Shown: positions 3,001-63,057 of the stretch, in pieces
Position numbering within the stretch: position 1 is the first letter of the stretch
Layout: every line of letters starts with the position of its first letter
NCBI GenBank assembly: GCA_030737835.1
Contig: CM060847.1
Coordinates: 24,687,384-24,751,383 of the forward strand
Length of the DNA: 64,000 bases
Reading direction: 5' to 3'
From: Acorus gramineus
Taxonomy: Eukaryota; Streptophyta; Magnoliopsida; Acorales; Acoraceae
Made by a program: the position numbers and the translations under genes
The notes under the pieces: model-generated
What the model was told of the DNA's origin: nothing
The model's database searches: none
Seen by the model: the letters and a program-made list of their open reading frames with translations, nothing else

Positions 3001-3100
3001 CGCCTTGTGTATTGTTGTTGGTGTCCTTATTGATCTCAGGTATTGATAGCTGATATTATATTTTATTTTGCCACGTCTCGGGGATGCCTGGGGTGTGACA
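1..3100 (+). mobile_element. Partial LTR (3' part) of a Tekay/Del-type chromovirus
   Basis: The segment ends in the GTGACA terminus shared by the other LTRs of this family and aligns over its last kilobase with 5700-6164. The left end lies outside the window. It contains a splice-like cassette: donor GT at 184, acceptor AG at 943-944, a 39-nt mini-exon at 945-983, a second donor at 984, and a late acceptor at 2720-2721. The first 'intron' holds a GCGC-rich tract at about 312-860. The LTR stops exactly where the next LTR sequence resumes in mid-element at 3101, so it probably inserted into that LTR. The target duplication cannot be tested because the left end is missing. Confidence 0.75.
312..860. 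repeat. CpG-dense GCGCGC tract inside LTR
   Basis: Roughly 550 bp consist largely of alternating G and C with GTGCGC and GCGTGC runs. All six frames are open only because the composition has few stop codons, and the conceptual peptides are low-complexity Arg/Ala/Cys. Comparable tracts sit at the same LTR position at 8810-9390, 51640-52210 and 61530-62300. I regard it as intron-like LTR sequence, not as coding sequence. Confidence 0.85.
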
Positions 3101-6100
3101 GCTTGTGTGTGTGTGTGTTGTTGTTTCTTTCCCTTCTCCATCTCCAACCCTCTCATGCCTCCCCTCATGTTTTCCTCTGTTTTTCAGCCAAGAAGGGCTG
3201 GTCGAGAGGCTGAAGAGATGGTGGTAGTAGTGGTGGTGGTTGAGGTGGTCGTGGGTGTGTCGGTAACCCCGCATCTCCCCATTTCCCTCCCCCTGTTTCG
3301 GTAAGGCAGCTCACTGTCTCTTAAAGATCTCAGTGAATCTAGTATTTAGAGGCATATTTTTAGGATTATGTCTGCTTATGATATGATCATCTATGTGTCT
3401 AGTTGTTATATATGAAATTTGGGGTCATTATGACATCTTGGTGTAAGTTAGAAACAATTTTTCATGACCTATCCAGATTCGCGTAGGAATTGATCTGCTT
3501 CGGAAAATGATTTGTTTCGGGCTTGTAGAGGCAAAATTAGGTTCTAATGTCTTCATGGATTATGATCCCAGCATATCATAGAATGTGCATGATTTATTTC
3601 ATAATTTTTGGAAGTGTATTGGGTGCTGTGAAGACCAATTAGTAGGGCTGGTTGCAGCAGGTTTAGTAGTTTTGCTTGGTTGAGTGTCAAGGAGTTGGTT
3701 GCATGTGTCTTGGGTGATAATATGGAAGTATCAGGGGTTAGGGTCTTCATGAAGTAAGCTTATATGTGTGATAGGAGGTTCCATAATTTAATTATGGATC
3801 ATTGGTTGTGTTTTGCAGATCTCGTAGACCGGACGCGCGGTGATCCTGGTATCGGTGAGTGGTTCGATCCAATCCCCCCCCCCCCTCGAGATGCGCTCGA
3901 TGGGGCTCCCTAACTATACTACTTGTGTAGATAAGTAGTATGACCATGCTTAAGCTATAATATGTAGATATCTTGCATGCTAGGCTTATATACATGTATT
4001 GTATTCATGTATGAATGATTGTGTTGCATGAGCCCCTCTAGTATGGGCATGTATTTGTGTAATGTGTATGGATGTATAGAATATGGCATGCCTTAGGTAG
4101 TATTGTAATACTACTCCCACCATATTAATTGGAATATCGAACATGAATAAGTCTGGGTTAATAACGGGCACCTGCCTAATATTCCCTTGCAATAAGACTC
4201 GAGGGCGTGGTGTAGTTGTTGCACCCATGCTAATGGGGCAAAGCTATGACCAGCTTCATGAGATGATGATCTCCCCCGCCCTCTCCCTCTAAACGAACTG
4301 AGTAAGTAGATGCGATTTCCTATTAGACTTAGGTTCGTTTGGAATATTGGCATGCACCTGTTAGTGCGCGAGATCGCGCTTGCCCCTTTCTTTTAAGTTG
4401 GCGATATCCAACGGATGTTAGAGTATATTTTGTATGTTTATGTGATTAATGACTATGTATGCATGTTGTATGAATTATTATGATGTAAATCCATGTTAGG
4501 GAGTGTCCCTATAATTATTAGATGATTGTGCATATGGTTCATGCACATAGCTGATATAAAATTCTCCTGGATATATTTATATGCGCATGTTAAAAGCTGA
4601 TTATGCCTATCTGGAATAGGCGTGGGTATGACCCGCTGTCAGGTTGTACCTTATTAGTTAGAGCGCTAGCGATGTAATCGCCCCATGCATCCGAGCGATG
4701 CACTCGTTTGGAATTCAGGAGAATTCATTATCTTATCGGATTGTTAAGCCGGTAGTTGGGGCGTGACACCCCCCTTGTGTCCGAGCGACACAACGGTGTG
4801 GGAGTACAGTAGTATTCGATATCTCGATAAGTGATTATCGAGAGTAGTTGTTTTCCATTGGGTTCGCTTTGCGAACATGGAATGTTTACTCCCAATGTCG
4901 TCCGTGTTGAAGAGGGCCGGGTTGTAGCTGTCCTGACAGAGGGCTCCCATCCGTAGGTACCACCGATGCGTTCGGGAGCGTACTGATCGTGGGAGTGTAC
5001 CAGGTAGAGGCTACCCGGGAGAGGGCTAACGAATGATATTGCGAGTGTGGAATCGTTCTCCCCTTCGTTGGATCCGATGTAGGAACTCCCCGGCGTTGGA
5101 AAAGCTGTCCTGACAGAGGGCTCCCATCCGTAGGTACCACCGATGTGTTCGAAAGCGTACTGATCGTGGGAGTATACCAGGTAGAGGCTACGTGGGAAAA
5201 GGGCTACCGGTGGACCAAGGGTGTAGAGCAGTCTAAGTCTCTTCCAAAAGTCCCAAGAGTCTCCCTCCGGGAGTGAGGGTGAGGATGAGGTGAAGACACG
5301 TCGTCTCGTGACCCATTCGTTGTTCGTCCGTTCTCATAGTTGTTGGGTCCGGTCTCGTATCGATGTTTAAAGACATCGTTGGGCAGTTATCTCGATGTAG
5401 ATGATCCAGTAGTGTTGCATAGACCAGTAATCCCGGGTCTCCTCGACCAACGGTATGGTCTCTCCCCAAAAGTCCCAAGAGTTTCCCTTTGGGAGTGTGG
5501 GTGAGGGTGAAGTTGATGATCCAATAGTGTTGCGTAGACCAGTAATCTCGGGTCTCCTCGACCAACGGTATGGTCTCTCCCCAAAAGTCCCAAGAGTCTC
5601 CCTCCGGGAGTGAGGGTGTGGGTGAGGTTGGTCGCGCCATCGCGTGACCCTGTTATCCATGGGTTTCCACCCATGTTTACCTGGAAAGGAAATTGTTTAT
5701 GTATTGAACTATTGTATGGTGATTGGTTTCCAGCCACTCACTGAGCTTGTAGCTCACCCCTCGCATACTGTTTCTTTTCAGGGGCAGTGTTGGGCGTGGA
5801 GCTGGAGCTTTCCTGTGGCGTTGTCTTATGGGCGTGGAGCGTTCTTCCGGCGGGTGGCGAGTGCGAGGCTGTCAGCAGTCCTAGAGTCATTGTATGTATT
5901 GTAAATCGTGCATGTGGCACAGGTTGTATTTTCTTTGGTCTAGACTTGGCTCTCACAGGACAGTGATTGTGTATTCGAGTCTGTAATAATGTTTTTGGTT
6001 TACAGACATTGTTTATATATTATGGTTCCGCTTTTCAGTCAGTTATCATTATCCTTGCTTTGCCACATTGTGTGTTGTTGTTGGAGTCTTTATTGACCTC

Positions 6101-6164
6101 AGGTATTGATGGCTGATATTTTATTATTGCCACGTCTCGGGGACGGCCGCCCTGGGGCGTGATA
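3101..6164 (+). mobile_element. 5' LTR of element A, truncated on the left
   Basis: This segment aligns almost base for base with 12441-15531, the 3' LTR of the same element. It ends at 6164 (GTGATA, the family terminus GTGACA with one change) and a PBS follows at once. The first ~600 bp of the LTR are missing at the junction with the LTR ending at 3100. Splice-like cassette: donor 3301, acceptor 3817-3818, 36-nt mini-exon 3819-3854, donor 3855, late acceptor 5780-5781. Unlike some relatives, its first intron is not GC-rich. Two local tandem duplications are visible: a ~177-bp unit at about 4930-5200 and a ~115-bp unit at 5400-5633. Confidence 0.85.
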
Positions 6165-6182: not shown

Positions 6183-6279
6183 TGGTCCTGTCAGAGCCTA
6201 AGTCTAGTCATATAGATGATGAGTCGTAGGATTGTCATCCGAGTACTCTTGTTTCAGAAGTTATCTTAGGTTGCTGACA

Positions 6280-8022: not shown

Positions 8023-8286
8023 TGTTATATATGTGTCACTTTTTGGCCTATTGGCAACCATTGGAGCATTTTTAGCAGTTTTAAAATTTTTGTGTTTTTC
8101 GATCGGAACCGCATAATTTCAGACTGTTAGCTATTGTCTGAGTTAGAGGACTCTGATTGAAAATCTAACTGCATATTATGTGTCCTGGTGCCGTTTTAAG
8201 CCACTCATGAAAATTTCATCGAATTCCGGCATCGTTTCCAAAAATTTCACAGTTCCGGGGCGTATCCGGGTTTTTAAGTCGCACAC

Positions 8287-8296
8287 TATATAAAAG
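8287..8296 (+). promoter_or_regulatory. TATA box of the solo LTR
   Basis: TATATAAAAG sits ~265 bp into the LTR, where a plant LTR core promoter is expected. Transcription would start near 8320, giving a short U3 and a very long R/U5. In element B the corresponding place has a weaker TTAAATAAAA at about 51159. Confidence 0.6.
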
Positions 8297-8809
8297 GAAT
8301 AAAAAATATCTAATCACACTATTCATCATCCCTACGACTTGCTTTTCTCTCTCCCCTCTCTCTTTTTCTCACTTTCAAGCCTCCTAGACCCCTCAAACCA
8401 AGAAACCTAAAGCACGGGAAGTGTAGAACGGGTCCCGATCTACGCTCCGGTGTCTTCAAATCCGAGTTCCGACGATCCTAGCCTCCCCGACCTCCCCTTT
8501 TCGTCCTCTGATTTGGCCCATTTCGAAGGCCAAGCTAGATCGGGGCGTGAGAAGGCCGTTGTGAAGGGTTTCGGTGCGTGGAGAGCACCCGGTCACCTCT
8601 TCCTCCCCTTGGTAAGCTTCTTTTCCCCGTTTTTCTTGTCTAGATGATTGCTAGGGGGGGTTTTGTGTTTGGGAGGTGGTCGACGGCAGTGGGGGTCGTC
8701 GAAGGGTGGTCGGAGGCGGTTGGAGGTGGTCGGCGGCAGTGGGAGGGGTGGTTGGAGGTGCTCGGCAGGCAGGGGCACTGTCCCGGGCAGCAGGCAGCGG
8801 CGGCAGCAG

Positions 8810-9390
8810 CCCAGGCCGCGCGTAGGCTGGGCGCGTGCGCGCGCGGGCGTGCGTGCGCGCGGCATGCGCGCGGGTGTGCGCGGTCTGGGGCTGGCAGTGC
8901 TGGTCGTGCTGGGTATGCTGGAGGGGCTGGCAGTGCTGGCGAGTGGGCTGGTGGCCTCGGGTAGCCCAGGCGCAGGAGCTGGCGGGGCGCGCGCGGGCGT
9001 GCGCTCGGGAAGAGCTGGAGGCCAGCTAGGGAGCTGCGCGCGAGGTGCTGGTCGCGCTGGTCTGCGCGCGAGGTGCTGGTCGCGCTGGACTGGGCACGAG
9101 GAGCTGGTCGCGCGGGGTGCTAGTCGTGCGGACAGTGGCGGTGCGTGCGCGAGGTGCAGGCGGACAGTGGGGGGCCGTGCGGGGTGCTCGCGGGGCGGCG
9201 CGAGGTGTTTGGAGCGCTTGGGCTACTGCTGCGGGGCGCAGTGGATGCGCGGAGCCCCGGGGGCGGTGCGGTGGCGTGTCCAGGCGGCGGGCAGAGGGTC
9301 CGGCGGAGCACGGGATGTGCGGGCTGAAGCGCGGCGGTGCACCCGGGCGGTCGGGGGCCGTGCGGGTGGTTGCCGAGGGTGTTGGGTGTT
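8810..9390. repeat. CpG-dense tract in the solo LTR
   Basis: This is a second GCGCGC-rich tract, lying between the donor at 8612 and the acceptor at 9470. Open frames of up to 260 codons run through it on both strands, but their products are low-complexity and are not conserved with the tracts in other LTR copies. Confidence 0.8.
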
Positions 9391-10942
9391 TGTTGTGGGT
9401 TTTGGGTATTTATTGTGTATTATTGGATAGTGGTGGATTTATTCTAACCAGTTAATAACTTGTCTTGCAGATCCCGATGGACGGTCGCGCGTCGACCCGA
9501 TTTCCGGTGAGTGGGACAACCCAACCCAGCGTGGGAGGCGCTACATGCTTTGGGCGTGTACCGTCCTCCCCTGGGGCTTATAGTTAGTATTAACTGCTTG
9601 TTGTAATCCATGTATGCATGATGTGTGTGTAGAATTGCATGCCACCCTAGATTTTGTGATAGGGACTTGCACCCTTAGGTTTGTGCATGAGCCGTACATC
9701 CTGTCACCTCGCTATCATGCTAGGAAAGCCTGACCTGTGCATGCGTCCTATTAGTTTGGTTTATTTAATTAAATGCGAACTGTAATAATAGATATCATGT
9801 TTAGGGAAAATAAGGGGGGCCTTGCGAGGTTAACATTGAGACCCGGGTTAGGGCACTATGTGTTCCTCGTTTGGTTGTCGGATGTCCTGCATCGGGACCT
9901 CAGGTTATCCTCCCAAGGTCTCTTTTTCCCATATTGGTCTTATTTATTTCCCCGCATCCTGGTTATGCGCGCTGGAGGAATTCTGAGGAATTCGAGACAT
10001 TAGAGTCGTAGAGATGTGCTGTCAGCGGATCCGAGTGGATCATATGCGATGGATAGGCTGTTATGTTCCCCTCGTCGGATCCGTGTAGAGACTACCTCGG
10101 CGTTAGACAGGTTGTCCCGTGCAGGGGCTCCCACTAGTAGGCGCCTCCTGATTTGGTGAAGGACTGTGCTGAACATGGGAGTGGCCAAACAACCACGGAG
10201 TGAGGAGAGACTATCGGTGGACCAAGGGTAACCAACAGCCTAGTCCGTCCCAAAAGCCTAGGTCACCTGTTGAGAGGTGAGGGTGAGGGTATGGTGGGCC
10301 GGCAATGCGACGACCCACAGGATTATGTATGGATGATTATCTACCCACTAAGTCCCAATATCCTAGGTCACCTGTGGAGGGTGAGGGTGAGGGTGAGGGT
10401 ATGGGGTTCGGCGATGAACGAACCCCCGGATTGTGATGCTATGCCACTTGTGGCTTATGAATTGCTTAAATGTGGTTAATATGAACCGTATGCATGGGTT
10501 GTGCTATTCACTGAGCGTGTGGCTCACCCCTCGCATATTGTCTTTTCAGTGATCCCTGAGGGAGGAGCTTCCCGAGCGACTACACCGGCAGAGGGTAGCG
10601 CCGCGTCCCACGAGTTTTGAGGCCATCAGCACCCTTCTTTCTGTTGTACGTATATGTTCTGTGCTTGGGCACTTAGTTGGATTATGTTGGGACTTTATTT
10701 GTGTATATATGGGCATGTTGGCTCTCACAGGACTTATGATTATGTATCGGGTCTGTAGTATGTTTTGACTACAGACTCAGTCTTTTAGCTTCCGCATTTG
10801 GTGTATATATTATGTCAGCCCTGCTTTTACCTGTGTTGTCATATTATTTGTTGTTTGTGGTATATTATTGAACTCTTGTTACTGATATCATATATACACT
10901 TGCCGCGTTCCGGGGACGGCCGCCCTGGGGCGTGACAACGCG

Positions 10943-11825: not shown

Positions 11826-14800
11826 TGTTATGCCTGTGTCATTTGGAGCCATTTCGGTTAAGCCTTGGTCACTTCTGGGTCATTCAGGGCCTTTTTAATT
11901 TTTCGATCGGAACCGCTAAAATTTTGGCTTTTAGCCACCTGCGGGAGTTAAAGTACTCTGATTGGAAATCTGATTCCATATTATGGATCCTGGTACCGTT
12001 TAGTACTACCCATAAAAATTTCATCGAATTCCGGTAACGTTTGAAAAAATATGCAGTTCCGAATCGTATTCGGGTTTTCGAGAGTTCCTGGTTGGGCGAA
12101 TAGTGTGAGATATTTTGGGGATGTGGTGACCCTTGGTAACCTTACCCCCACCTTGCTTAGGGGTGAAGAAACCTTTGGTTATTGGTTATGTGAGTGGGTG
12201 AGCCTAACCCTAACCTCACCCCCCCTTAAGGTCACCCCTAGGCACTATTTGGGCATGAAAAAGACCTTTTTGGCCTCTCTCTCTCTCCCCCTCTCTCCCA
12301 ACTCGTGGATCTCTCTTTCTCTCCCTCTCTTGGTCTCTTTTTCATCTCTTTGTGTGTGGAGAAGGAGGAGGAAGAAGCAAAGGAAGGAGAAGGTGAAGGA
12401 GAAGATGAATAGTGTATGAAGGGATGATCTAGCTAGGGTGAGTTTGTGTGTGTGTATGTGTTGTTGTTTCTTTCCCTTCTCCATCTCCAACCCTCTCATG
12501 CCTCCCCTCATGTTTTCCTCTGCTTTTTAGCCAAGAAGGGCTGGTGGAGAGGCTGACGAGATGGTGGTAGTAGTGGTGGTGGTTGAGGTGGTCGTGGGTG
12601 TGTCGATAACCCCGCATCTCCCCATTTCCCTCCCCCTGTTTCGGTAAGGCAGCTCACTGTCTCTTAAAGATCTCAGTGAATCTAGTATTTAGAGGCATAT
12701 TTTTACGATTATGTCTTCTTATGATTTGATCAGCTATGTGTCTAGATGTTATATATGAAATTTGGGGTCATTATGATATCTGTGGTGTAAGTTAGAACCA
12801 GTTTTGCATGACCTGTCCAGATTCGCGTAGGAATTGACCTGCTTTGGGAAATGATTTGTTTCGGGCTTGTAGAGGCAAAATTAGGTTCTAATGTCTTCAT
12901 GGATTATGATCCCAGCATATCATAGAATGTGCATGATTTATTTAAAAATTTTCGGAAGTGTATTGGGTGCTATGAAGACAAATTAGTAGGGCTGGTTGCA
13001 GCCGGTTTAGCAGTTTTGCTTGGTTGAGTGTCAAGGAGTTGGTTGCATGTGTCTTGGGTGATAATATGGAAGTATCAGGGGTTAGGGTCTTCATGAAGTA
13101 AGCTTATATGTGTGATAGGAGGTTCCATAATTTAATTATGGATCATTGGTTGTGTTTTGCAGATCTCGTAGACCGGACGCGCGGCGATCCGGATATCGGT
13201 GAGTGGTTCGATCCAATCCCCCCCCCTCGGGATGCGCTCGACGCGCGTAGACGCATGTCGCGCATCGATGGGGCTCCCTAACTATAATACTTGTGTAGAT
13301 AAGTAGTATGACCATGCTTAAGCTATAATATGTAGATATCTTACATGCTAGGCTTATATACATGTATTGTATTCATGTATGAATGATTGTGTTGCATGAG
13401 CCCCTCTAGTATGGGCATGTATTTGTGTAATGTGTATGGATGTATAGAATATGACATGCCTTAGGTAGTATTGTAATACTACTCCCACCATATTAATTGG
13501 AATATCGAACATGATTAAGTCTGGGTTAATAACGGGCACCTGCCTAATATTCCCTTGCGATAAGACTCGAGGGCGTGGTGTAGTTGTTGCACCCATGCTA
13601 ATAGGGCAAAGCTATGACCAGCTTCATGAGATGATGATCTCCCCCGCCCTCTCTCTGAACGAACTGAGTAAGTAGATGCAATTTCCTACTAGACTTAGGT
13701 TCGTTTGGAATATTGGCATGCACCTGTTACTGAGCGAGATCGCGCTTGACCCTTTCTTTTAAGTTGGCGATATCCAACGGATGTTAGAGTATATTTTGTA
13801 TGTTTATGTGATTAATGACCATGTATGCATGTTGTATGAATTTTTATGATGTAAATCCATGTTAGGGAGTGTCCCTATAATTATTAGATGATTGTGCATA
13901 TGGTTCATGCACATAGCTGATATAAAATTCTCCTGGATATATTTATATGCGCATGTTAAAAGCTGATTAGGCCTATCTGGAATAGGCGTGGGTATGACCC
14001 GCTGTCGGGTTGTACTTTATTAGTTAGAGCGCTAGCGATGTAATCGCCCCATGCATCTGAGCGATGCACTCATTTAGAATTCAGGAGAATTCATTATCTT
14101 ATCGGATTGTTAAGCCGGTAGTTGGGGCGTGACACCCCCCTTGTGTCCGAGCGACGCAACGGTGTGGGAGTACAGTAGTATTCGATATCTCGATAAGTGA
14201 TTATCGAGAGTAGTTGTTTTTCCATTGGGTTCGCTTTGCGAACATGGAATGTTTACTCCCAATGTCGTCCGTGTTGAAGAGGGCCGGGTTGTAGCTGTCC
14301 TGACAGAGGGCTCCCATCCGTAGGTACCACCGATGCGTTCGGGAGCGTACTGATCGTGGGAGTGTACCAGGTAGAGGCTACCCGGGAGAGGGCTAACGAA
14401 TGATATTGCGAGTGTGGAATCGTTCTCCCCTTCGTTGGATCCGATGTAGGAACTCCCCGGCGTTGGAAAAGCTGTCCTGACAGAGGGCTCCCATCCGTAG
14501 GTACCACCGATGTGTTCGAAAGCGTACTGATCGTGGGAGTATACCAGGTAGAGGCTACGTGGGAAAAGGGCTACCGGTGGACCAAGGGTGTAGAGCAGTC
14601 TAAGTCTCTTCCAAAAGTCCCAAGAGTCTCCCTCCGGGAGTGAGGGTGAGGATGAGGTGAAGACACGTTGTCTCGTGACCCATTCGTTGTTCGTCCGTTC
14701 CCATAGTTGTTGGGTCCGGTCTCGTATCGATGTTTAAAGACATCGTTGGGCAGTTATCTCGATGTAGATGATCCAATAGTATTGCGTACACCAATAATCC

Positions 14801-15531
14801 CGGGTCTCCTCGACCAACGGTATGGTCTCTCCCCAAAAGTCCCAAGAGTCTCCCTTTGGGAGTGAGGGTGAGGGTGAGGTTGATGATCCAATAGTGTTCG
14901 TAGACCAGTAATCCTGGGTCTCCTCGACCAACGGTATGGTCTCTCCCTAAAAGTCCCAAGAGTCTCCCTCCGGGGGTGAGGGTGAGGGTGAGGTTGGTCG
15001 CGCCGCCGCGTGACCCTGTTATCCATGGGTTTCCACCCATGTTTACCTGGAAAGGAAATTGTTTATGTATTGAACTATTGTATGGTGATTGGTTTCCAGC
15101 CACTCACTGAGCTTGTAGCTCACCCCTCGCATATTGTTTCATTTTCAAGGGCAGTGTTGGGCGTGGAGATGGAGCTTTCCTGTGGCGTGGTCTTATGGGT
15201 GTGGAGAGTTCTTCCGGCGGGTGACGAGTGCGAGGCTGTCAGCAGTCCTAGAGTCATTGTATGTATTGTAAATCATGCATGTGGCACAGGTTGTATTTTA
15301 TTTGGACTAGACTTAGCTCTCAGAGGACAGTGATTGTGTATTCGAGTCTGTAATAATGTTTTTGGTTTACAGACATTGTTTATATATTATGGTTCCGCTT
15401 TTCAGTCAGTTATCATTATCCTTGCTTTGACACCTTGTGTGTTGTTGTTGGAGTCTTTATTGACCTCAGGTATTGATAGCTGATATTTTATTATTGCCAC
15501 GTCTCGGGGATGGCCGCCCTGGGGCGTGACA
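11826..15531 (+). mobile_element. 3' LTR of element A
   Basis: It starts TGTTATGCC after the PPT and ends GGGCGTGACA, 3706 bp. Its last 3.09 kb are nearly identical to 3101-6164, which defines the LTR pair. Splice-like cassette: donor 12644, acceptor 13161-13162, 36-nt mini-exon 13163-13198, donor 13199. The late acceptor region near 15145 has drifted (TTTTCAAG). The first 600 bp give the U3 sequence missing from the truncated 5' LTR, including a family-wide motif CGATCGGAACCGCTAAAATT near 11902. Confidence 0.88.
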
Positions 15532-50719: not shown

Positions 50720-53576
50720 TGTTATATATGTGTCACTTTTTTTAGCCTCCTGGTAACCATTGGAGCATTCTGGTTGTTTTTCAACTTTTTCGTTTTTCGA
50801 TCGGAACCGCTAAAATTTTGGACTTTTGGCTATCACCCTGAGTTTGAGGGCTCCGATTGAAAATCTAACTGCATATTATGTGTCCTGGTACCATTTCAAG
50901 CCACTCATGAAAATTTCATCGAATTCCGGTAACGTTTCAGAATTTTGCAGTTCCGAATCGTATCCGGGTTTTGACCGAGCGAAAAGTCATTGGGAGACTT
51001 GACTTGGTCAAAGTTGACCTTGACTTGGTCAATGGGTTTTGGTTTTTAGTGTGGTTGGGTTGACTAAGGTCAAAGATCACCTAAACCTAACCTAAACCAA
51101 GCTTAACCTAATCTAATTTCAAGTGGGTGTGTGTGTGTGTGTGTGGTGTGTGTGTGCCTTAAATAAAACCCACGACCACAAATAGAGTTCCCCCACTATT
51201 CATCATCTCCTCCAACTCTCTCAAGCTCTCTCTCCCTCTCTTTAAATCCCCATTTGGACCTACTTAGAGTGTTCAAAAGAAGAAACCCTAGAAGGAGAAA
51301 AGAAAGGTAAGGACCCGATCTACCTTTGCATGGTCTCGGATTCGAGTTCCCTCATGTGTGACCCCCTCTCATGGCCCCTTTTCTCCTCAGATTTCAGCCA
51401 TTTTTAGGGCTGAAGGAGGGCTTGGTGGTGGTGGCCTTGGAGGTGGTGTTTCGGTGCACGAAGAGCACCCGATCTCCTTCCCTTCCCTTCCTCTCCTTTG
51501 GGTGAGCTTCCTTTCCTTCCATTCTTGTTTAGATGCATGTTTAGGAGGTGTTTTTGGGTGTGCATGGCTGTTGGGGAGTTGGAGGGGGCTGTTGGGGGCG
51601 GTTGGGAGTGGTAGAGTCGGCTCGGGCAGTGCGGGCTCATCGGGCCTGCGCGTGCAGAGCAGGCTGGCAGGCGCAAGGCAGGCGAGCTGGCAGGGGACGC
51701 GCGCTTGCGCGAGGGCGTGCGCGCGGGTGCTGCGCGCTGGGCGCAGTGCCGGGCGTGGGCGCGGGCACGCGTGCGGGTGCTGCGCGCTAGGTGCCGTGCG
51801 GGGGCGTGCGCGCGGAGCGCTGCGCAGAGGCGCAGTGCGTGCTGTGCGCGCAGTGAGGTGAGCGAGCGTGCGCGCGGGGTGCTCACGAGGTACTGCGCGG
51901 GGGCGTAGTGCGTTCGGGTGTGCGCGCGATGTGCTGCGCTGGGGCGCAGTGCGCGCGCGGTGCACCCGGGGCTGGACGCGCGGTGCGCGCGGGCGCGCTC
52001 GAGCGCGCAGCGTGTCTGGGCGTGCGGGCAGGGGCTCGACAGCGTGTCTGGGCGTGCGGCAGGGGCTCGACAGCTTGTCTGGGCGTGCGGGCAAGGGGCT
52101 CGGCAGTGCGTTTGGGTGCGCGGGCTGGGGCGCGGCTGTGCGCCCGGGGTGGGTGGCCGTGCGTATGGCTACCCGGGGGTTCGGGTGAGTCGGGGTGCTC
52201 GGACTCGCGTGCGTACGGGCCCTATGTACGCTGGTCCGAGTGTTGGGTATTTTTAGTGTATTTTTGTATGTATTTGTGTATTTTACTCACCATGTTGAAT
52301 GCCCTGTCTTGCAGATCTTGACGGACGGTCACGCGACGACCTGGGTATTGGTGAGTGGGACAATCCAGCCCAGTAGGGAGGCGTATATGCTTTTAGGCGT
52401 GTATCGTCCTCCCCCTGGGGCACCATAGTTTAATATTAACTTGTATAATATGTAATCCATGCAGGCATGATTATTTTGTAGTATGCATGTCACCCTAGAT
52501 CTTGTATGTTAGGGACTTGCACCCTTAGGATATGTGTAAGAGCCATGCATCCTGATACCATATTTTCATGCTAGGAAGCCTTGACCTGTGCATGTTCCCA
52601 TTTAGTTTAATTTATTTAAATCAAATGTGAGTTATTTAGTAATAAGCATGCTTAGTGAATATTATAACCATGAGGTTATAATACAGGCTTCCCCGCATCG
52701 TAGCTATGCGCCCTGAATGAATTCGCAAGAATTCATGACATTTAAATTGTTGGGAAGATGTTGCCGACGGATCCGATTGGATCGTATACGTGTGGGTAGG
52801 CTGTTTCTGTTCCCTTCGTTGGATCCGTATAGAGACTGCCCCAGCGTTAGAAAGGCTGTCCTGATAGAGGGCTCCCATCAGTAGGCACCTCCTGATTTGG
52901 TTTCGGACTGTGCTGAATTGTGGGAGTAGACCAGGCGGGCTACGGAGTGGAGGAGAGACTATCGGTGGACCAAGGGTGATTAACAGCCTAGTCAGTCCCA
53001 ATAGCCATGTCACCTATTGGAGGGTGAGGGTGAGGGTGTAGTGGGTCGCTACACCCACTGGATTGTGTAGTTCCTGCCACTTTGAGGCTTTGAATAATTT
53101 TGATGTTAATATGAATTGTGATGCATGGGTTGTGCTATTCACTGAGCGTGTGGCTCACCCCTCGCATAATTTTTCTCCAGTTATCACTGAGTCGGACCTG
53201 AAGGAGGAGCTCCCCGAGGGACTTCATCAGTAGCGGAGCAGCGCCACGTCCCGCGAGTGTTAGAGGCCATCAGCATCCCTTTTTGATTGTATGTATTATA
53301 TTTCTGTGCTTGGGCACCTGTTTGTATTATATTGGATGTCATTGTATATATTAACTCTCACAGGACAGTGATTATGTATCGAGTCTGTAATATGTTTTTG
53401 AATTACAGACTCAGTCTTTTAGCTTCCGCTATTTGTGTATATATCATGTCAGCCTTGCTTTTGTCTGTGTTGCCATTTTAGCTGTTGTTTAGAGTATGTT
53501 ATTGATCTCCTGTATAGACTGTTGATATCATATATACACTTGCCGCGTCCGGGGACGGCCGCCCTGGGGCGTGACA
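50720..53576 (+). mobile_element. 5' LTR of element B (Tekay/Del-type chromovirus)
   Basis: It starts TGTTATATATG and ends GGGCGTGACA, 2857 bp, followed by AAAGT and the PBS. Its first ~970 bp match the start of the 3' LTR at 56931 closely, indicating a fairly recent insertion. Splice-like cassette: donor 51502, acceptor 52313-52314, 36-nt mini-exon 52315-52350, donor 52351, late acceptor 53179-53180. The first intron contains the GC tract 51640-52210. The flank before the LTR is GTTAC. Its partner cannot be tested because the 3' LTR is cut short. Confidence 0.92.
51640..52210. repeat. CpG-dense tract in the element B 5' LTR
   Basis: GCGCGC-rich sequence fills the space between the donor at 51502 and the acceptor at 52314. 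GTGTCTGGGCGTGCGG recurs at about 52010-52090, showing local tandem growth. Open frames through it are low-complexity artefacts. Confidence 0.85.
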
Positions 53577-53581
53577 AAAGT

Positions 53582-53594
53582 TGGTATCAGAGCC
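53582..53594 (+). other. Primer-binding site of element B (tRNA-iMet)
   Basis: TGGTATCAGAGCC follows the 5' LTR after a five-base spacer, as in element A. Confidence 0.95.
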
Positions 53595-53695
53595 TGGTCC
53601 TGTCAGAGCCAATTGTTTTCTTTTCGTAGAGATGAGTCCTAGGATTTCTATATGAGTATTCTGATCCTAGTGTCTGGTTTTCTTAGGTTGCTGAT

Positions 53696-54922
53696 ATGCC
53701 TCCTCGCAGAGGACAGCGCGGACGTGGTCCCTCTCGACCTTTGGAGGTTTCTGGACCTGCCGGAGGTGAGGATGCTACTGGAGAGTCCTCGGCTGTGAGG
53801 CCAGGACTGGCGCAGGAGCCTCCTGCATGGGAGCGTGCTTTCGCTCGGATAGCAGATTTGGTGGAGACTCAGACCAGGGCACTGGAGGCCCAGACTAGAG
53901 TATTGGCTGAGCAGGCACGAGAGATTCAGGAGCTGAGGGCGGCCCGTGATGCAGTTCCACAGGTCCCCTTGGTGGCAGATCCGCCTGTGGTACCCGATGT
54001 ACCCCCAGTCCCTGTGGTGATTCTGACGGTGAGAGTTCAGGATCCCCAGGAGAGGGAGGTGGAGCTAGAGGCTGCAGCGCGAGTGCATCAGAGTGGCCTC
54101 AATGCCTTTCTGAAGCTCCACCCTCCCGAGTTCCATGGCCAGACGGTGGATCCCCTTGCCCTAGAGCGTTGGTTGATGGAGGTGGACACGATCTTCTCGA
54201 CCATGCATTGCACCGACCGCCAGCGAGTCTCCCTGGCCACCTTCATGCTGAAGGGTAGCACCGCCGACTGGTGGGCTACCCGATCGGTGGACATCCCCGA
54301 GGGAGTGGAGCAGCTTCTATGGGCGGGATTCCGGAGGTATTTCCTGGAGGAGTACTTCCCGTTCTCGATGCGCCAGATCGTGATGCAGGAGTTTGAGCAG
54401 CTGACGCAGGGCTCCATGTCTGTCGCTGACTACTCCACGCGTTTCATGAGGCTTTCCATATTTGCCCCAGCCTTGGTGATGGATGAGGAGACGCGGTGCC
54501 GTCGTTTTGAGCTTGATCTCAGTAGCGCCATTCGGGTGCATGTCACCTCCCAGGCTTTCACGAGGTACTCGGACTTGGTGTCTCGGGCGAAGACAGTCGA
54601 GCGAGACCTCGGGATCCTCGTGAGGGTTGCGACCCCTTCTGCAGACCAGAGACCTCCCAGGAGCCAGGACCAGGGACAACGCAAGAAGAAGAGGCCCTGC
54701 TTGGATCAGTTAGCGGTTGCCGCTCCTCCAGCAGATGTGGTGCCAGTGCAAGGTCCAGCACCCATTGCGGCGGTGCCAGTCCAAGCCAGGCGACCGGAGA
54801 CGCGGCGCTGTTACCACTGTCAGCGCATCGGGCATATCTTGTATAATTGCCCTGATGCTGGTCGACCCCGCGTGCTGCCTCCGCTGCAGCAGCAGCAGTT
54901 GCAGCAGCAGCCGTTCCAGTAG
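53696..54922 (+). CDS. gag: gag polyprotein of element B
   Basis: This intact frame of 408 residues starts at the ATG ~100 bp after the PBS. An Arg/Gly/Pro-rich N-terminus leads into a heptad-like stretch (residues ~40-85, [20 protein letters not shown]). The capsid domain (about 135-295) has [25 protein letters not shown] and [18 protein letters not shown], typical of the Ty3/gypsy gag family. A CCHC zinc knuckle uses C372, C375, H380 and C385 for RNA binding. The C-terminus is glutamine-rich and a stop falls in a CAG-rich run. In a complete element protease and RT would follow; here RNase H follows directly. The protein would form virus-like particles if expressed. Confidence 0.92.
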
Positions 54923-54945: not shown

Positions 54946-56881
54946 GCGCCAGTTCTTACCCTTCCGTCTGGGAGTGGTGGGTTCGCAGTATACTCCGATG
55001 CATCGCGGTTGGGTGTGGGTTGCGTCCTGATGCAGCACGGTAAGGTTGTGGCTTACGCGTCGCGTCAGTTGAAGCCCCTTGAATTACCCTACCCACGACC
55101 TTGAGTTGGCAGCGATCATCTTTGCGCTGAAGATGTGGAGGCACTACCTCTATGGCGAGGAGTTCGAGCTCTTTACCGATCATAAGAGCTTGACATATTT
55201 GCAGTCCCAGCCGGAGCTCAACATGCGTCAGAGACGTTGGGTCGAGTTCCTGAAGGACTATGATTGTGACATCGCTTACCATCCGGGTAAGGCGAATGTC
55301 GTGGCAGATGCTCTCAACAGGCAGCCCTTGGGCATGGCCGCCCACCTGGCTGTACGTCGTTGGAGGCTTCTGGAGGAGGCCGCTTGCTGGATCAGCGTTC
55401 GAGAGACTCCTGCGGGTGGCTTTTTGGCCAGGCTAGTGGTGCAGCCCGTTCTTCTCGACGAGATCCGCACGGCTCAGGGGCAGGATCCTCACTTTCTAGT
55501 CCTCTCTGAAGGCGTCGCCCGGGGCGAGCGTCCGGACTACAAGATTCACGAGGACGGGATCCTGCGGTTCAGAGGCCGAGTATGCATTCCTGACGACGCA
55601 GAGCTGAAGCAGAAGATCTTGGACAAGGCCCATCGTTCGAGGTACACAGTGCATCCTGGTGGCACGAAGATGTACAGGGGCCTTCGTCGTGGCTACTGGT
55701 GGCGCAGGATGAAGACGGATATTGCCCGTTTCGTTGCCCGATGCTTAGTATGCCAGCAGGTGAAGTCGGAGCATCAGCGTCCTGCGGGGAAGCTGCAGTC
55801 CATTGAGATCCCTCAGTGGAAGTGGGAGCAGATCACCATGGACTTCGTCTCGGGTTTGCCGAGGTCACGTTCGGGTCGCGATGCCATCTGGGTGATCGTC
55901 GACCAACTGACGAAGTCCGCTCATTTCCTCCCCATCCGACTCACCGATTCTCTGGACACCCTGGCGCAGTTGTTTGTCTCTGAGATTGTTCGTCTCCATG
56001 GCACTCCCGTCAGCATCATTTTCGATCGAGACGCGCGATTTACTTCGAGGTTCTGGCGTAGCCTCCAGCACGCCCTTGGTACAAACCTCCACTTCAGTAC
56101 AGCGTTTCATCCGCAGACGGACGGCCAGTCAGAGAGGACGATTCAGACCTTGGAGGACATGCTGCGAGCCTGCGTTCTCGATTTTGGGGGCAGTTGGGAG
56201 AGGCACCTTCCGTTGGTGGAGTTTGCCTACAACAACAGCTACCACTTGAGTATCAGGATGGCTCCTTACGAGGCGCTCTATGGCCGCAGCTGCAGGTCCC
56301 CCTTGTGTTGGGACGAGGTCGGGGAGCGCCAGTTGGAGGGACCAGAGATCATTCACCAGACCTCAGAGATGGTCAAGACGATTTGCGAGCGTATCCGAGT
56401 TGCTCAGAGCCGTCAGAAGAGCTACGCCGACCGTCGTCGCCGTGAGCTCGCCTTCAAGGTTGGTGACCATGTCTTCCTGAAGGTGTCCCCGATGAAGAGC
56501 ATCTTCCGTTTCGGTGTGCGGGGCAAGCTGAGTCCGCATTTCAAAGGGCCGTTCCTCATCCTCGAGGGAGTCGGGGAGGTGGCCTATCGCATAGCTCTTC
56601 CCCCACAGTTGGCTCATGCCCATGACGTCTTCCATGTCTCGCAGCCGAGGCATAATGTCCACGATCCTACACACGTCATCCTGTTCGAGCCGCTCGTCTT
56701 CGAGCCGGACTTGTCATTCGTGGAGCAGCCGATCGAGATCCTGGACCGCCGCGAGAAGAGGCTCCGCACCAAGACCGTCCAGTTGGTCAAGGTGCAATGG
56801 CAGCACCGTTCCGGTGCCGAGGCCACTTGGGAGCTCGAGGACGCCATGCGTGACGCGTATCCGCATCTTTTCCCTTCCTAG
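54946..56881 (+). pseudogene. pol: RNase H-integrase-chromodomain of element B, protease/RT deleted
   Basis: From 54946 one frame reads [20 protein letters not shown], the start of RNase H. A frameshift near 55075 leads to a 600-codon frame (55079-56881). In that frame RNase H continues (LFTDHKSLTYLQ 31-42; YHPGKANVVADALNR 67-81). The integrase zinc finger is H185/H192/C222/C225. The catalytic triad is D255, D316 and E352, a DD35E spacing. A GPY-like region follows (SPHFKGPFLILEGVGEVAYR), and the chromodomain-type tail includes WELEDAMRDAYP. Protease and nearly all of RT are missing between gag and this frame. The integrase and tail look undamaged. Confidence 0.9.
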
Positions 56882-56930: not shown

Positions 56931-57926
56931 TGTTATAAATGTGTCACTTTTTAGCCTTCTGGTAACCATTGGAGCATTCTGGCAGTTTTTCAGCTTTTTC
57001 ATTTTTCGATCGGAACCGCTAAAATTTTGGACTTTAGCTATCACCCTGAGTTTGAGGGCTCCGATTGAAAATCTAACTGCATATTATGTGTCCTGGTACC
57101 ATTTCAAGCCACTCACGAAAATTTCATCGAATTCCGGTAACGTTTCAGAATTTCGCAGTTCCGAATCGTATCCGGGTTTTGACCGAGCGAAAAGTCATTG
57201 GGAGACTTGACTTGGTCAAAGTTGACCTTGACTTGGTCAATGGGTTTTGGTTTTTAGTGTGGTTGGGTTGACTAAGGTCAAAGATCACCTAAACCTAACC
57301 TAAACCAAGCTTAACCTAATCTAATTTCAAGTGGGTGTGTGTGTGTGTGTGTGGTGTGTGTGTGCCTTAAATAAAACCCACGACCACAAATAGAGTTCCC
57401 CCACTATTCATCATCTCTTCCAACTCTCTCAAGCTCTCTCTCCCTCTCTTTAAATCCCCATTTGGACCTACTTAGAGTGTTCAAAAGAAGAAACCCTAGA
57501 AGGAGAAAAGAAAGGTAAGGACCCGATCTATCCTTCCATGGTTTCGTTTTCGAGTTCCCACTTATGTGACCCCCTCTCATGGCCCCTTTTCTCCATAGAT
57601 TTCAGCCATTTTTAGGGCTGAAGGAGGGCTTGGTGGTGGTGGCCTTGGAGGTGGTGTTTCGGTGCACGAAGAGCACCCGATCTCCTTCCCTTCCCTTCCT
57701 CTCCTTTGGGTGAGCTTCCTTTCCTTCCATTCTTGTTTAGATGCATGTTTAGAAGGTGTTTTTGGGTGTGCATGGCTGTTGGGGAGTTGGAGGGGGCTGT
57801 TGGGGGCGGTTGGGGGTGGTAGAGTCGGCTCGGGCAGTGCGGGCTCATCGGGCTTGCGCGCGCAGGGCAGGCTGGCAGGCGCAGGGCAGGCACGCTGTCG
57901 GGCGAGCTGGCAAGGGACGCGCGCAG
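56931..57926 (+). mobile_element. 3' LTR of element B, truncated in its GC tract
   Basis: This copy starts TGTTATAAATG and follows 50720-51693 closely, including the GGTGAGCTT donor near 57709. It then breaks off in a GGGACGCGCGC run at about 57926. Nearly 1.9 kb of LTR are missing. Reverse-oriented LTR sequence of another subfamily starts at the break. Confidence 0.88.
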
Positions 57927-58889
57927 ACAACGCCCAACATGCGCCCACTCTTCCCTAACCCCTTTTTAACCCTCCCCAACCCCTCACACACATTCTAACA
58001 CATCTACCCAACATGCATGACCTCCCAAACCATCCCTAAGCCATAAAAACCAAGAAAAGAAGGGGAAAGTCTCACCTTGGGAGGGGAAATGAAAAGGGGA
58101 GGTTCGGGGGCCCTCGACGCACCCGCGACCACCTCAACCACCACCACCACTACCACCACTTCCTCAGCCCTCCTCAGCCCTCCTTTGGCTGCAAATCAGG
58201 GGGGGAAAGTTCATGAAAAGGTTCTTGAGAGAGAGGAGATCAACAACTACAACAACACTTACCAAAACTTTTCTCTTCCTCCTTCACCTTCTCCAACTTT
58301 TCTCTTTGAGGAAATAAAACAAACACTTGGAGGGGGGGGTTGAAAGAGAGGAAGAGAGAGCCAAGAATGTTGACGTGGGGAATGGGAGGGGAAGAGAGAG
58401 AGATATTTCTTTGGGCACATAATAATATAAAAGAGGATACAAATGACCAATTCATCCTTGACTAGAAATTCTGTACATGCTTCACTAGAACAGCCATAAC
58501 TTCCTCAATATAGCTCCGAATTGTACAATTCAAAGTCCGTTGGAAATCCAAGAAGATTATCTACAACTTTCATGTTTATGCCCAGCACAAATAATCCCTC
58601 CAGCTAGCTAAACATAGAACAGGGCTGCTGCCATAATTTTTCATCCCCGGGGTATACTTGGAAAAATACCCATAACTTTTACTACAGGAATCCAGTTGAT
58701 CTAATTCCACTTTTGTATGAAAGCTAACTCGAAACTGAGCATCTCATAATAAACTCATATTTAAACCTCTTCATCTTGGATTTTAACAAAATCAAATCCA
58801 AATACCAAATTGAAAATACATAACTTCGAGGAGAAAAATTATGTAGCCAAATTTTCAATCAGAGCGCTCCAAATGACACAGGCATAACA
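57927..58889 (-). mobile_element. Inverted 5' portion of an LTR, head-to-head with element B
   Basis: The reverse complement of 57927-58210 matches 1-340 of the window, including the CAACCACC-type repeat, the donor region and the start of the GC tract. The outer end at 58889 reads TGTTATGCCTGTGTCATTTG on the reverse strand, as in the 3' LTR of element A. A run of T and C follows at 58890-58912 (AAAAAAAGGGGGAAACC on the reverse strand), a plausible PPT. This would make it the start of the 3' LTR of a minus-strand element. Confidence 0.75.
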
Positions 58890-58904
58890 TGTGGTTTCCC
58901 CCTT

Positions 58905-59410
58905 TTTTTGTTTTGGGAAAGCATGTAAACAAGTATGTGCATGAATGAGGAATGAAAGCTGATTAGCATTCTTGTTTGGATTTTTTATTTTATTTTATTT
59001 TGGAAAGCAAGGAAACAAATATGTACAAGATTTTGGAATGAAAGCTGATAAACAAATTTTTTTTTTTTTGTTTTGAAAGCATGTAAACAAATATGTACAA
59101 GAATCCAAAAGCATGAAAGCTGTTTACCATTGTATTTTTGGGATTTTTTTTTGGAAAGCATGGAAACAGATATGTACAGGATCGAGGAATGAAAGTTGGT
59201 TAGCATTCTTTTTTGGATTTTTTGTGTTTTGGAAAGCATGGAAACAGATATGTACAGGATTGAGGAATGAAAGCTGTTTAGCATTGTATTTTTGGGATTT
59301 TTTTTGGGTTTTGGAAAGCATGTAAACAAAAATTTGAAAGCATGTTTTTTTTTTTTGGGATTTTTGTTTTTGAAAGCAGATAAACAAATATGTACAGGAA
59401 TTTGGAAGCA
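58905..59410. repeat. Tandem repeat, seven units of ~60-90 bp
   Basis: GAAAGCATGTAAACAAATAT and variants recur at about 58918, 59004, 59075, 59153, 59231, 59313 and 59371. Each is usually followed by GTACA, GAATGAAAGCTG and a T-rich stretch. T-run length differences cause the variable spacing. Frames through it, such as 58985-59440 on the reverse strand, are repetitive and not convincing as coding. Confidence 0.85.
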
Positions 59411-59752: not shown

Positions 59753-62700
59753 TGTCACGCCCCAGGGCGGCCAACCCCGGGACGCGGCAAAATGTATATA
59801 TCATATCAGAAGCCTACACAGGAGGTCAATAATATATATCATACACAGACAACTATAATGACACACATGCAACAAAAGGGGCTGACATGATATATACACC
59901 AAATGCGGAAGCAAAAGACTGAATCTGTGAATAAACATTCTACAGACTCGATACTCAATCATCTGTCCTGTGAGAGCCAATATACACAAATACAACTGAA
60001 CATATATACAGACACGTGCCAAGCACGGAAATCAAATACATACAGTCAAGAAGGGATGCTGATAACCTCTGGCACTCGCGGAACGTGGCGCTGCTCCGCT
60101 ACTGAAGAAATCCCTCGAAAAGCTCCAACTGCTGCTCCGGCTCCAGCTCAGGCTCAGTGGCAACTGGGGAAAAACATATGCGAGGGGTGAGCCGCACGCT
60201 CAGTGAACAGCACAACCCATGCATCACAGACAATATTTACCAATATTCCATTATTTTATCCAGCCATCAATACATAACAACATAATCCAGTGGTTCGTAC
60301 TTCGCCGAACCACCACACCCTCACCCTCACCCATCAATGGGTGACATAGGCTATTGGGACTGATAATCATTCATTCACAAATCCAGTAGGTCGCTCATCG
60401 CCAACCCACTACACCCTCACCCTCACCCTCAACGGGTGACATAGGATTTTGGGACTGACTAGGCTGTTGGTCACCCTTGGTCCACCGATAGTCTCTCCCT
60501 CCACTCCGTAGGCCGCTTGGTCTCCACCCACAACTTCAGCACAGTCCGAAACCAAATCAGGAGGTGCCTACTGATGTGGGTCCTCCGAAGGACGGCCCTG
60601 TCTAACGCTGGGGGTAGCCTCTACCGAATCCAACGCAGGGAACAGAACAGCCTATCCATACGCATGTGATCCACTCGGATCCGCCGACAACATAACATTA
60701 CAACTCAAATGTCATGAATTCCTCTGAATTCAACCGGGTGCATCATCAAGATGCGGGAACATGTACAAAAATCAGTAAGGCTGGAATATCATTGGGGGAA
60801 AGAAACTCGGAAGGGCGGCGTGAGTTCCCGTTACAGGATACCCCGACAACCAAACAAGGAACACGGAGTACCCTAACCCGGGTCTCACCGCTGTCCTTGC
60901 AAGGCCCCTCCCCTATAATATCTACCAACTATACTGATAATTATACCAATCATACAATCATTACATATAATATTATTGGGACTAGAACCTTGGGAGGGCA
61001 GCCCGAGGTCCCGATACAGGACATCCTGACAACCAAACAAGGAACACGGAGTACCCTAACACGGGTCTCAGCGTTGACCTCGCAAGGCTCCTCCCTATAA
61101 TATTATCCTAAGGCATGCGATCTAACAGATACCAGCATTTAATTTAATAATTAAACTAGTAGGACGCATGCATAGGCCGGGGTTTCCTAGCATGAAAACC
61201 AGGGGACATGCTGCATGGCTCATACGCATATCCTATGGGTGCAAGTCCCTAACATAAAAGCCTAGGGTAGCATGCATTCTACACATAATCATACAAGCAT
61301 GGATTTCATATTATTGCAGGTTAATATAATCCATGTCGCCCCAGGAGAGGTCGGTATACGCCCAAGTGCGTATAACACCTCTCTACTGGGTTGGATTGTC
61401 CCACTCACCAGTATCTGGGTCGTCGCGCGACCGTCCGTCTAGATCTGCAAGACAGACAATCAATATGCTGAGTTAAAATCCATAAATATTACAAAATACA
61501 TAAACCCATAATTAAACTCCCAACACTCAGGCAAACGTGCATACGACCCGCACGCACGCTAGCCCGAGCACTCCGACAACCACCCGCACGGCCGGCCACC
61601 ACCCGCACGGCCACCCGACCGCCCGGACGCGCCGCCGCGCCTCAGCCCGCGCACTCCGCGCACCGCCCGGGGCTCCGCGCGTCCACCGAGCCCAGCCGCG
61701 GCAGCCTGCACGCGCCCCGCACGCCGTGCGCTGGCCCGCGAGCACCCCGCACGCCCCCGCGCGCGGTGCCTCGCCCCCGCGCACACCATCCCTGCCTTGC
61801 CGCGCCCCGCGCACGCCTCGCGCACGCCTCCTCGCCCCGCGCGCACCCCGCGCGCACCTCCGCCGCTCTGCCGCGCCTCGCGCGCACCACGGCCGCCTCG
61901 CCGCGCCCTCCGCGCGCACTCTGCACACCCGCGCGCACGCCTAGCACCTCTGCCACACCCCGCGCACGCCTAGCACCTCGGCCACCACCTCGCGCACGCC
62001 TAGCACCTCGGCCACCACCTCGCGCACGCCCTCCGCTGCCTCAGCCACCACCTCGCACCCGCGCGACCTGCTCCACGCGCACCAGCCCGCCCAGCACCAG
62101 CCGCCCAGCTCGCCCAGCACGCCCGCACGACCAGCACAGCACGGCCAGCTCTGCGCACAGCCGCCCGAGCAGCTCCCTGCACCAGACCCGCGCGCACTCG
62201 CGCGTACGCCGCGCGCACGCACGCCCGCGCATGCACGCGCGCGTGCCCGCGCGCGCCCGGCCTGCGCGCCGCCTGGGTCGCTGCCGCTGCTGCCTGCGCC
62301 CGAGGACGTCTCCCACCAGCCCGAGCACCACCAACCACCCCTCACACTGCCGCCACCACCTCCAACCACCTTCGACCACCCTCCGACGACCCCCACTGCC
62401 ACCGACCACCTCCCAACCACAAAACCCCCCCCTAGCAATCATCTAGACAAGAAAAAAGAGGGAAAGGAGGCTTACCGAGGGGAGGAAGAGGCGTCCGGTG
62501 GATCTCCACGCGCCGAAACCCTTCCCAAAAGCCTTCTCACGCCCCGATCTATCACGGCCCTCGATTTGGCTCGAAACAGAGGAGAGAGAGGGGAGGTCGG
62601 GGAGGCTAGGATCGTCGGAATTCGGATTTGAAGACACCGGAGCGTAGATCGGGACCCGATCTACACTTCCCGTGCTTTAGGTTTTTGATTTTGAGGGGTC

Positions 62701-63057
62701 TAGGGGGCTTGAAAGGAAGAAAAACGGAGAGGGGAGAGAGAGATCTCGACGAGGAAGACAATGAACAGTGCAGTGATTTAGATTCCTTTTAAGTAGAGCG
62801 CGACTTAAAAACCCGGATACGCCCCGGAACTGCGAAATTTTTGCAAACGATGCCGGAATTCGATGAAATTTTCGTGAGAGGTCTAAAATGGCACCAGGAC
62901 ACCAAATATGCAGTTAGATTTTCAATCGGAGTCCTCTAGCTCAGACGATAGCTAACAGTCTGAAAATAAGCGGTTCCGACCAAAAACCCTAAAAAATTTT
63001 AAAACTGCTAGGACGCTCTAACGGTTACCAGCAGGCTAAAAGTGACACAATATAACA
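59753..63057 (-). mobile_element. 3' LTR of a second minus-strand chromovirus
   Basis: On the reverse strand it begins TGTTATATTGTGTCAC at 63057, directly after a PPT, and ends GGGCGTGACA at 59753, 3305 bp. Reverse-strand splice-like cassette: donor at plus 62474-62475, GC tract about 61530-62300, acceptor at 61445-61446, a 36-nt mini-exon at 61409-61444, donor at 61407-61408, late acceptor near 60162-60163. CACCCTCACCCTCACCC repeats lie at about 60309-60330 and 60412-60430. Two copies of the ~117-bp module lie at 60794-60910 and 60979-61096. Confidence 0.88.
61530..62300. repeat. CpG-dense tract in the minus-strand LTR
   Basis: This is the counterpart of the tracts at 312, 8810 and 51640. 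GCACGCCTAGCACCTCGGCC recurs at about 61937, 61965 and 61997, again showing local tandem growth. Long frames on both strands (up to 226 codons) are compositional artefacts. Confidence 0.85.

Follow-up and report, generated by a model that had tools for sequence, protein, structure and literature searches.

Splice signals inside the long terminal repeats

The 64,000-nt window of Acorus gramineus contig CM060847.1 that was analysed here is plant nuclear DNA with nested Ty3/gypsy retrotransposons, in which RCC1-like and UDP-glycosyltransferase reading frames are also present. Our subject is the 5′ long terminal repeat (LTR) of one retrotransposon, element B, together with its relatives in the window and in the genome; these Ty3/gypsy chromovirus-type LTRs, on balance, probably carry a leader of spliceosomal introns with intron 2 as its regulated step. 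In the features of this LTR (L5) listed below, as elsewhere in the text, a slash marks a splice joint.

50720..53576, + strand, LTR L5, the 5′ LTR of element B, with TG...CA ends
51307..51397, + strand, intron 0 of L5, 91 nt, AAAG/GTAAGG ... TTTCAG/CC, missed by the first-pass annotation
51398..51501, + strand, exon 1b of L5, 104 nt
51502..52314, + strand, intron 1 of L5, 813 nt, 69% GC, precisely lost in other copies
52315..52350, + strand, exon 2 (the mini-exon) of L5, 36 nt
52351..53180, + strand, predicted intron 2 of L5, 830 nt, with donor GTGAGTGG and a CACTGAGC..GCTCACCCC block before the acceptor
53181..53576, + strand, LTR part of exon 3 of L5, which runs on through the primer-binding site at 53582 to gag at 53696

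The first-pass annotation had described one splice layout in six LTRs of the window, L5 and the five listed next.

1..3100, + strand, LTR L1, left-cut: intron 1 184-944, mini-exon 945-983 (39 nt), intron 2 984-2721, exon 3 2722-3100
3101..6162, + strand, LTR L2, 5′ LTR of element A: intron 1 3301-3818, mini-exon 3819-3854, intron 2 3855-5781, exon 3 5782-6162
8023..10937, + strand, LTR L3, solo, with an ACGCG duplication: intron 1 8612-9470, mini-exon 9471-9506, intron 2 9507-10549, exon 3 10550-10937
11826..15531, + strand, LTR L4, 3′ LTR of element A: intron 0 12438-12530, intron 1 12644-13162, mini-exon 13163-13198, intron 2 from 13199 (acceptor AG lost at about 15145)
59753..63057, − strand, LTR L6, 3′ LTR of element C: intron 1 62475-61445, mini-exon 61444-61409, intron 2 61408-60164, exon 3 60163-59753

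Donor 1, acceptor 1, the mini-exon and donor 2 were indeed present in 6/6 LTRs, and the late acceptor was kept as AG in 5/6, having drifted to CAA in the 12444-15531 LTR (L4), as had been claimed. Exon 3 of L6 begins at 60163, a base or so off the position given earlier (60162). Since 3101-6162 and 12444-15531 are the two LTRs of the single element A (97% identical), the six LTRs represent five insertions. Donor 1 reads G/GTRAG in all six and also occurs at two further LTR pieces, at 57710 (+) and 58075 (−). The loose pattern TGCAG/ATC-N(25-45)-GTGAGTGG, run on both strands of the window, gave six matches, precisely the six mini-exons, with lengths of 36, 36, 36, 36, 36 and 39 nt. The introns have U2-type features, namely GT..AG ends, a branch-point-like motif and a pyrimidine tract; CTCAC/CTAAC lies ~24-26 nt before acceptor 1 in L1, L3 and L5, CTCAG is found in L6, and no such motif is evident in L2 and L4.

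The cassette is conserved where its surroundings are not. Intron 1 of element A (L2) could not be aligned with the other LTRs, and an island of 63-94 nt over acceptor 1, the mini-exon and donor 2 still aligned in pairwise blastn with L1, L3, L5 and L6 (E = 1e-12 to 4e-6), which agrees with the earlier judgement that chance conservation is unlikely. Against L5, L3 and L6, an island of 63-91 nt was the sole aligned piece ahead of the intron-2 block (E of 5e-7, 4e-6 and 1.5e-9), and against L1 exon 1 aligned, intron 1 did not, and a 94-nt island at 77% (E 1e-12) was followed by a weak piece; L4 and L5 share a longer island of 188 columns that extends into intron 2. The earlier claim that intron 1 has been replaced by unrelated sequence between subfamilies thus holds for element A versus the rest only, as L1, L3, L5 and L6 align through intron 1 among themselves at ~60-73%, with L1 and L5 at 64%. 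Plain descent, in which the sites look conserved as the copies are young and LTRs without intron 1 are chance deletions, would fit the many copies that are 94-98% identical over the query. However, the island aligns although element A's intron 1 does not, and cassette conservation therefore reflects more than descent. In intron 1 of L5, the observed/expected CpG ratio is 1.18, compared to 0.32 in exon 1, so CpG is undepleted inside a transposon LTR.

Genomic copies without introns 0 and 1

Searches covered the 398.6-Mb genome from which the window comes. The family is very abundant there, with 11,041 L5/L3/L6-type acceptor 1/exon 2 places and 4,963 A/L1-type acceptor 2 places. In one LTR of the second sample described below (L045), exon 1 is joined straight to exon 2 and intron 2 is still in place. 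The exon 1/exon 2 joint pattern taken from L045 matched 203 genome places at ≤3 mismatches, compared to 0 for a reversed-pattern control. CTTTTG/ATC is kept by the 9 exact places and by 6 with one mismatch, and by 19 among the 100 matches listed of the 203; six other listed rows (CCCTTG, TCTTTG or ACCTTG before ATC) are possible joints that were left uncounted, and most others have AG before ATC and are unspliced. In all eight loci cut out from that search, the joint is present and leads into exon 2 and then the beginning of intron 2.

A degenerate joint pattern of the L5/L3/L6 type matched 50 places (control 0), of which 45 were judged joints by eye and 5 were set aside. These 45 comprise 17 ending GG/ATC (L5 kind) and 28 ending TTG or TCG before ATC (L3/L6 kind); the counts are of places and not of independent events, as pairs and inherited losses are counted repeatedly. 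Seven pairs among the places lie 5.1-7.5 kb apart on the same strand, as expected of the two LTRs of one element. Five such pairs were read (501 nt each, 93-99% identical within a pair), and the joint was found in both members in 4/5 pairs and in 9/10 stretches overall; the tenth stretch (L089) was unmatched by the script's pattern, though its joint appears among the degenerate-pattern places. On a tree of 29 LTRs, built from exon 2 and 1.3 kb downstream, the eight copies lacking intron 1 require four changes, and supported branches force each of these. The bootstrap of the tree had not settled, and two of the eight, L074 and L077, are on long branches; three origins are read when that pair is left out.

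Intron 0 is present in some LTRs only (51307-51397, 57515-57605, 12438-12530 and, in reverse, 58262-58189). Among L5-like copies, its GT is kept in 23/23 covered (GTAAG, GTGAG or GTATT) and its AG in 25/25, and neither donor nor acceptor was seen at the aligned place in L3 and L6. It is precisely missing in L073, L077, L079, L081 and L082, where exon 1a, ending AAG or TAG, is joined to CC, and it is kept in L075, L080 and L090, which lack intron 1 only; its state is not clear in L074, L076 and L078, and L079 is the same place as L045. These copies indicate that intron 0 is real and common to the A and B types, and it was probably lost in one lineage.

Because both introns are precisely missing from some genomic LTR copies, introns 0 and 1 were almost certainly spliced from RNA that was later reverse-transcribed, as read through the DNA copies; among the three introns, precise removal is seen in this way for introns 0 and 1 only. 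The earlier proposal of a spliced LTR leader is thereby borne out, splicing plus reverse transcription being the best explanation of these copies. The losses stop exactly on the predicted joint, with several backgrounds of exon 1 and at several points of the tree, and several sites change less than their flanks, all of which speaks against chance deletion and makes plain descent highly improbable.

Constraint on the splice sites across the genome

Two samples of LTRs were compared with their flanks, with positions in a reference CpG context excluded from the flank rates. Sample 1 consisted of 28 L5-like LTRs (L5 and 27 others 83-94% identical) and was chosen with a query containing the mini-exon, so that acceptor 1 and donor 2 are biased in it. 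Sample 2 consisted of 38 LTRs selected through the LTR 3′ end, which lies outside the cassette, and is free of this bias; 27/38 cover donor 2. In sample 1, donor-1 GT was kept in 28/28, acceptor-1 AG in 27/28, donor-2 GT in 28/28 and acceptor-2 AG in 26/27 covered. In sample 2, donor 2 was GTGAGTGG in 27/27 covered. The mini-exon, which had been put at exactly 36 nt in five of six copies, has that length in five of the six window LTRs and is 36, 37 or 39 nt among the 38 LTRs of sample 2, so 36 nt is a subfamily trait and not a fixed length.

Most tested splice signals change less than their flanks, some without significance. Donor 2 shows 0/96, 0/120 and 0/224 changes compared to flank rates of 6.0, 9.1 and 3.3% (p 0.005, 3e-5 and 0.001), i.e., 0/440 cells overall in the two samples. 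Donor 1 of the L5 type has 2/168 changes (flanks 8.8%, p 6e-5), and acceptor 0 has 1/150 (flanks 10.6%, p 3e-6). The block ahead of acceptor 2, in which CACTGAGC..GCTCACCCC is followed by pyrimidines and CAG, is constrained as well (p 0.0015 and 6e-7) and reads as a putative branch point plus acceptor. In the comparison with flanks that had been proposed as a check on the cassette, changes are significantly fewer in donor 2, in donor 1 of the L5 type and in acceptor 1 in one of three samples, and not in acceptor-2 AG or in donor 1 elsewhere. The core idea of the first-pass annotation is right and its fixed-length claim is wrong; the telling point is which of the introns can go missing.

An asymmetry between intron 2 and the introns before it

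The DNA itself records which RNAs were copied, and in this record the states of introns 0 and 1 vary, and no change of intron 2 was found. Four exon 2/exon 3 joint patterns (L5 type, 37-nt type, 39-nt type and general) gave 0 genome places, compared to 1,214 and 4,963 unspliced acceptor-2 places. For the L5 kind, 17 intron-1 joints, not all independent, stand against 0 intron-2 joints. The earlier suggestion that unspliced RNA serves as genome thus needs amending, as RNA without introns 0 and 1 has repeatedly served as genome; it stands for intron 2 in so far as no copy lacking it was found with the four patterns.

Two readings fit this asymmetry. Either RNA without intron 2 does arise and goes uncopied, or the intron is not excised. 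In the second, only introns 0 and 1 would be real, donor 2 would be kept for definition of exon 2 by U1, and intron 2 would stay in all RNAs. The absence of intron-2-less copies with the four joint patterns fits this reading, as does the acceptor-2 AG, which alone is not constrained beyond its flanks. Against it, donor 2 is unchanged in all 440 cells and the block before acceptor 2 is constrained, and we consider it unlikely. Because of these two constraints the first reading is favoured: intron 2 is likely real, judging from the conservation of its sites, and RNA lacking it would be message and not genome.

Two further features bear on how such an RNA could escape copying.

53687..53695, + strand, candidate alternative last exon start of element B, acceptor CTTAG/G just before the gag ATG, with a counterpart at 6270 in element A
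52812..53043, + strand, block in intron 2 alignable between subfamilies, candidate cis element of genomic RNA

Joining of donor 2 to the acceptor at 53687 (6270 in element A) would give a third variant, in which the primer-binding site is removed and copying thereby forbidden. The intron-2 block is common to the subfamilies of the window and occurs twice each in L1 and L2 (1735-1973, 2048-2290, 4860-5290, 10046-10300 and, in reverse, 60662-60400).

A possible switch between message and genome

In the proposed mechanism, RNA would start in exon 1a, behind a TATA-like box, and the leader would consist of exon 1a, intron 0 (about 75-95 nt, in some subfamilies), exon 1b, intron 1 (0.5-1.0 kb), exon 2 (36-39 nt), intron 2 (0.8-1.9 kb) and exon 3, which leaves the LTR via the primer-binding site to gag. 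Intron 2 would be the regulated step. RNA that keeps it, with or without introns 0 and 1, could be packaged and reverse-transcribed, and RNA that has lost it would act as a gag message, short in its leader and excluded from copying, either because a cis element of the genome lies within intron 2 or because donor 2 is joined past the primer-binding site. The probable role of introns 0 and 1 is in export and expression of a structured leader rich in upstream ATGs; these two introns would be losable and continually re-supplied from intron-bearing source copies. That the multi-intron LTR leader is such a switch, with intron 2 tagging genomic RNA and its removal giving a gag message that is never inherited, is a plausible but tentative reading of the sequence record.

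If transcription is taken to start near 51195, element B has an unspliced leader of 2,501 nt with 43 upstream ATGs and a minimum free energy (MFE) of -1,032; without introns 1 and 2, the leader shrinks to 858 nt with 11 ATGs and an MFE of -252. Since the spliced leader is shorter, with fewer upstream ATGs and a weaker MFE, splicing would help gag translation. A spliced upstream reading frame via exons 1-3 was considered and rejected: it is open in places, but the printed frames start without ATG, L1 has a stop and the mini-exon lengths include 37 nt.

Introns near the start of a transcript can raise its expression (intron-mediated enhancement). The LTR leader introns may accordingly serve mainly expression, through this effect and through U1 at near-start donors suppressing premature 3′ processing in the 5′ LTR, with the spliced product being minor. 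The donors do lie near the presumed start, and the U1 mechanism is described in the foamy virus report for a donor upstream of the poly(A) signal (PMC3694450). However, a role of this kind predicts a conserved donor, and not an island of acceptor, mini-exon and donor, nor the asymmetry between introns 1 and 2; as the main function of the introns it is doubtful.

Several observations weigh against a spliced leader with a regulated intron 2. The case for intron 2 consists of site conservation; the exon 2/exon 3 patterns allowed 2-3 mismatches and leave some exon-2 and exon-3 variants uncovered, and acceptor-2 AG on its own shows no more constraint than its flanks. Of the eight intron-1-less loci, three (L073, L074 and L075) have an altered donor 2. 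LTRs lacking intron 1 are rare, with 45 places compared to 11,041 unspliced acceptor 1/exon 2 places of the same types. Outside the L5 type, donor 1 has 3/66 and 0/24 changes (p 0.05 and 0.10), which is not significant; acceptor 1 has 1/72, 0/72 and 1/168 (p 0.13, 0.003 and 0.09), not significant in 2/3 samples; and donor 0 changes in 17/138, the same as its flanks, partly since its third base alternates between A and G. By a weight matrix, donor 1 of L5 ranks only 36th of 231 GT sites, and many other sites rank high. The 11 upstream ATGs persist in the spliced leader. For the block in intron 2, folding and covariation did not favour a conserved RNA structure, with z = 0.58 and a covariation term close to zero.

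How retroelements divide a single transcript between being translated and being reverse-transcribed is a long-standing problem, which the BARE paper names as such (PMC3735527). A DNA record of the copied RNAs opens it to testing by counts in genomes, with no need for an active element. If the proposed mechanism is true, the genome holds a countable fossil record of the splicing state of each reverse-transcribed RNA. Annotators of plant LTRs should be prepared for introns within them, and these splice sites may be used by host transcripts initiated in such LTRs.

Comparison with known spliced elements

In retroviruses whose packaging signal lies in an intron, RNA that has lost the intron is message only. 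The absence of found intron-2-less copies matches this arrangement, with the packaging signal being hypothetical here. In foamy virus, the LTR holds the major splice donor, which precedes the poly(A) signal (PMC3694450), and the LTRs studied here likewise carry a donor inside the LTR. In contrast to foamy virus, acceptors and a whole mini-exon also lie in the LTR, the element is of the plant chromovirus type, and LTR copies without the introns exist.

Plant LTR elements are generally intron-free according to the consulted part of a review (PMC12786077), with Ogre and EVADE as notable exceptions. Like the LTRs described here, these carry spliceosomal introns in a plant LTR retrotransposon (PMC12786077, PMC6317226); theirs lie in the coding region (between open reading frames in Ogre, in the protease region in EVADE), whereas ours lie upstream of gag, in the LTR. 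In barley, BARE1 has separate message and genome RNA pools, one of them spliced, and its 104-nt intron lies near the gag end, in contrast to introns in the LTR; DNA copies of its spliced RNA are described there as not amplifiable from barley DNA (PMC3735527), whereas DNA copies spliced for introns 0 and 1 were found in this study. The placement of an intron within or between gag-pol coding sequences that marks Ogre, EVADE and BARE was thus not found here, the introns being in the LTR and gag following only at 53696. Spliced plant elements are also reported from sunflower long reads, with no Tekay elements among those expressed (PMC7730604). A suggestion of leader splicing in centromeric retrotransposons is not borne out by the one paper checked, PMC3059260, in which neither "splic" nor "intron" occurs. 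Among titles and abstract openings of the open-licence PubMed Central literature, no report of introns inside plant LTRs was recognised, and a prior report in print is still possible.

Element B and the remaining features of the window

The rest of element B and an LTR fragment not listed in the first-pass annotation are as follows.

53696..54922, + strand, gag reading frame of element B
55073..56881, + strand, RNase H - integrase - chromodomain-like reading frame of element B
56931..57924, + strand, 3′ LTR of element B, truncated within intron 1, with donor 1 at 57710 and intron 0 at 57515-57605
57925..58403, − strand, LTR fragment L7, with intron 0 at 58262-58189 and donor 1 at 58075 (AAG/GTGAGA), truncated within intron 1

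Ty3/gypsy LTR hallmarks are present, namely TGTTATA...GTGACA at L3 and L5, the ACGCG duplication at L3 and a primer-binding site GGTATCAGAGC after L5 and L2. Gag, RNase H, integrase and a C-terminal chromodomain, the last weakly, place the element among Ty3/gypsy chromoviruses. Profile matches in element B include Retrotrans_gag (47.8 bits), RT_RNaseH (70.3) and Integrase_H2C2 (63.2); rve scored 22.2 against a Pfam cut-off of 32.6 and Chromo 19.5 against 25.1, so that the chromodomain call is weak. No reverse transcriptase family was matched in the two scanned frames of element B, and since gag and RNase H-integrase are kept, the element looks non-autonomous. Judging from its long LTRs and gag start, it may belong to the Tekay clade. 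No Rfam family reached its gathering score in the window. Searches of viral and bacterial/archaeal contigs with sequence patterns and an integrase query found no relatives; degenerate pattern matches in one viral contig (a chance match in phage-like sequence) and three bacterial contigs (taken as chance) were rejected.

L1 and L2 abut at 3100/3101, L2 being without its start and its intron-0 donor, and in our reading the element of L1 inserted into the U3 of L2. Near fragment L7, positions 58903-59305 hold five tandem copies of ~80 nt with T-rich linkers between them.

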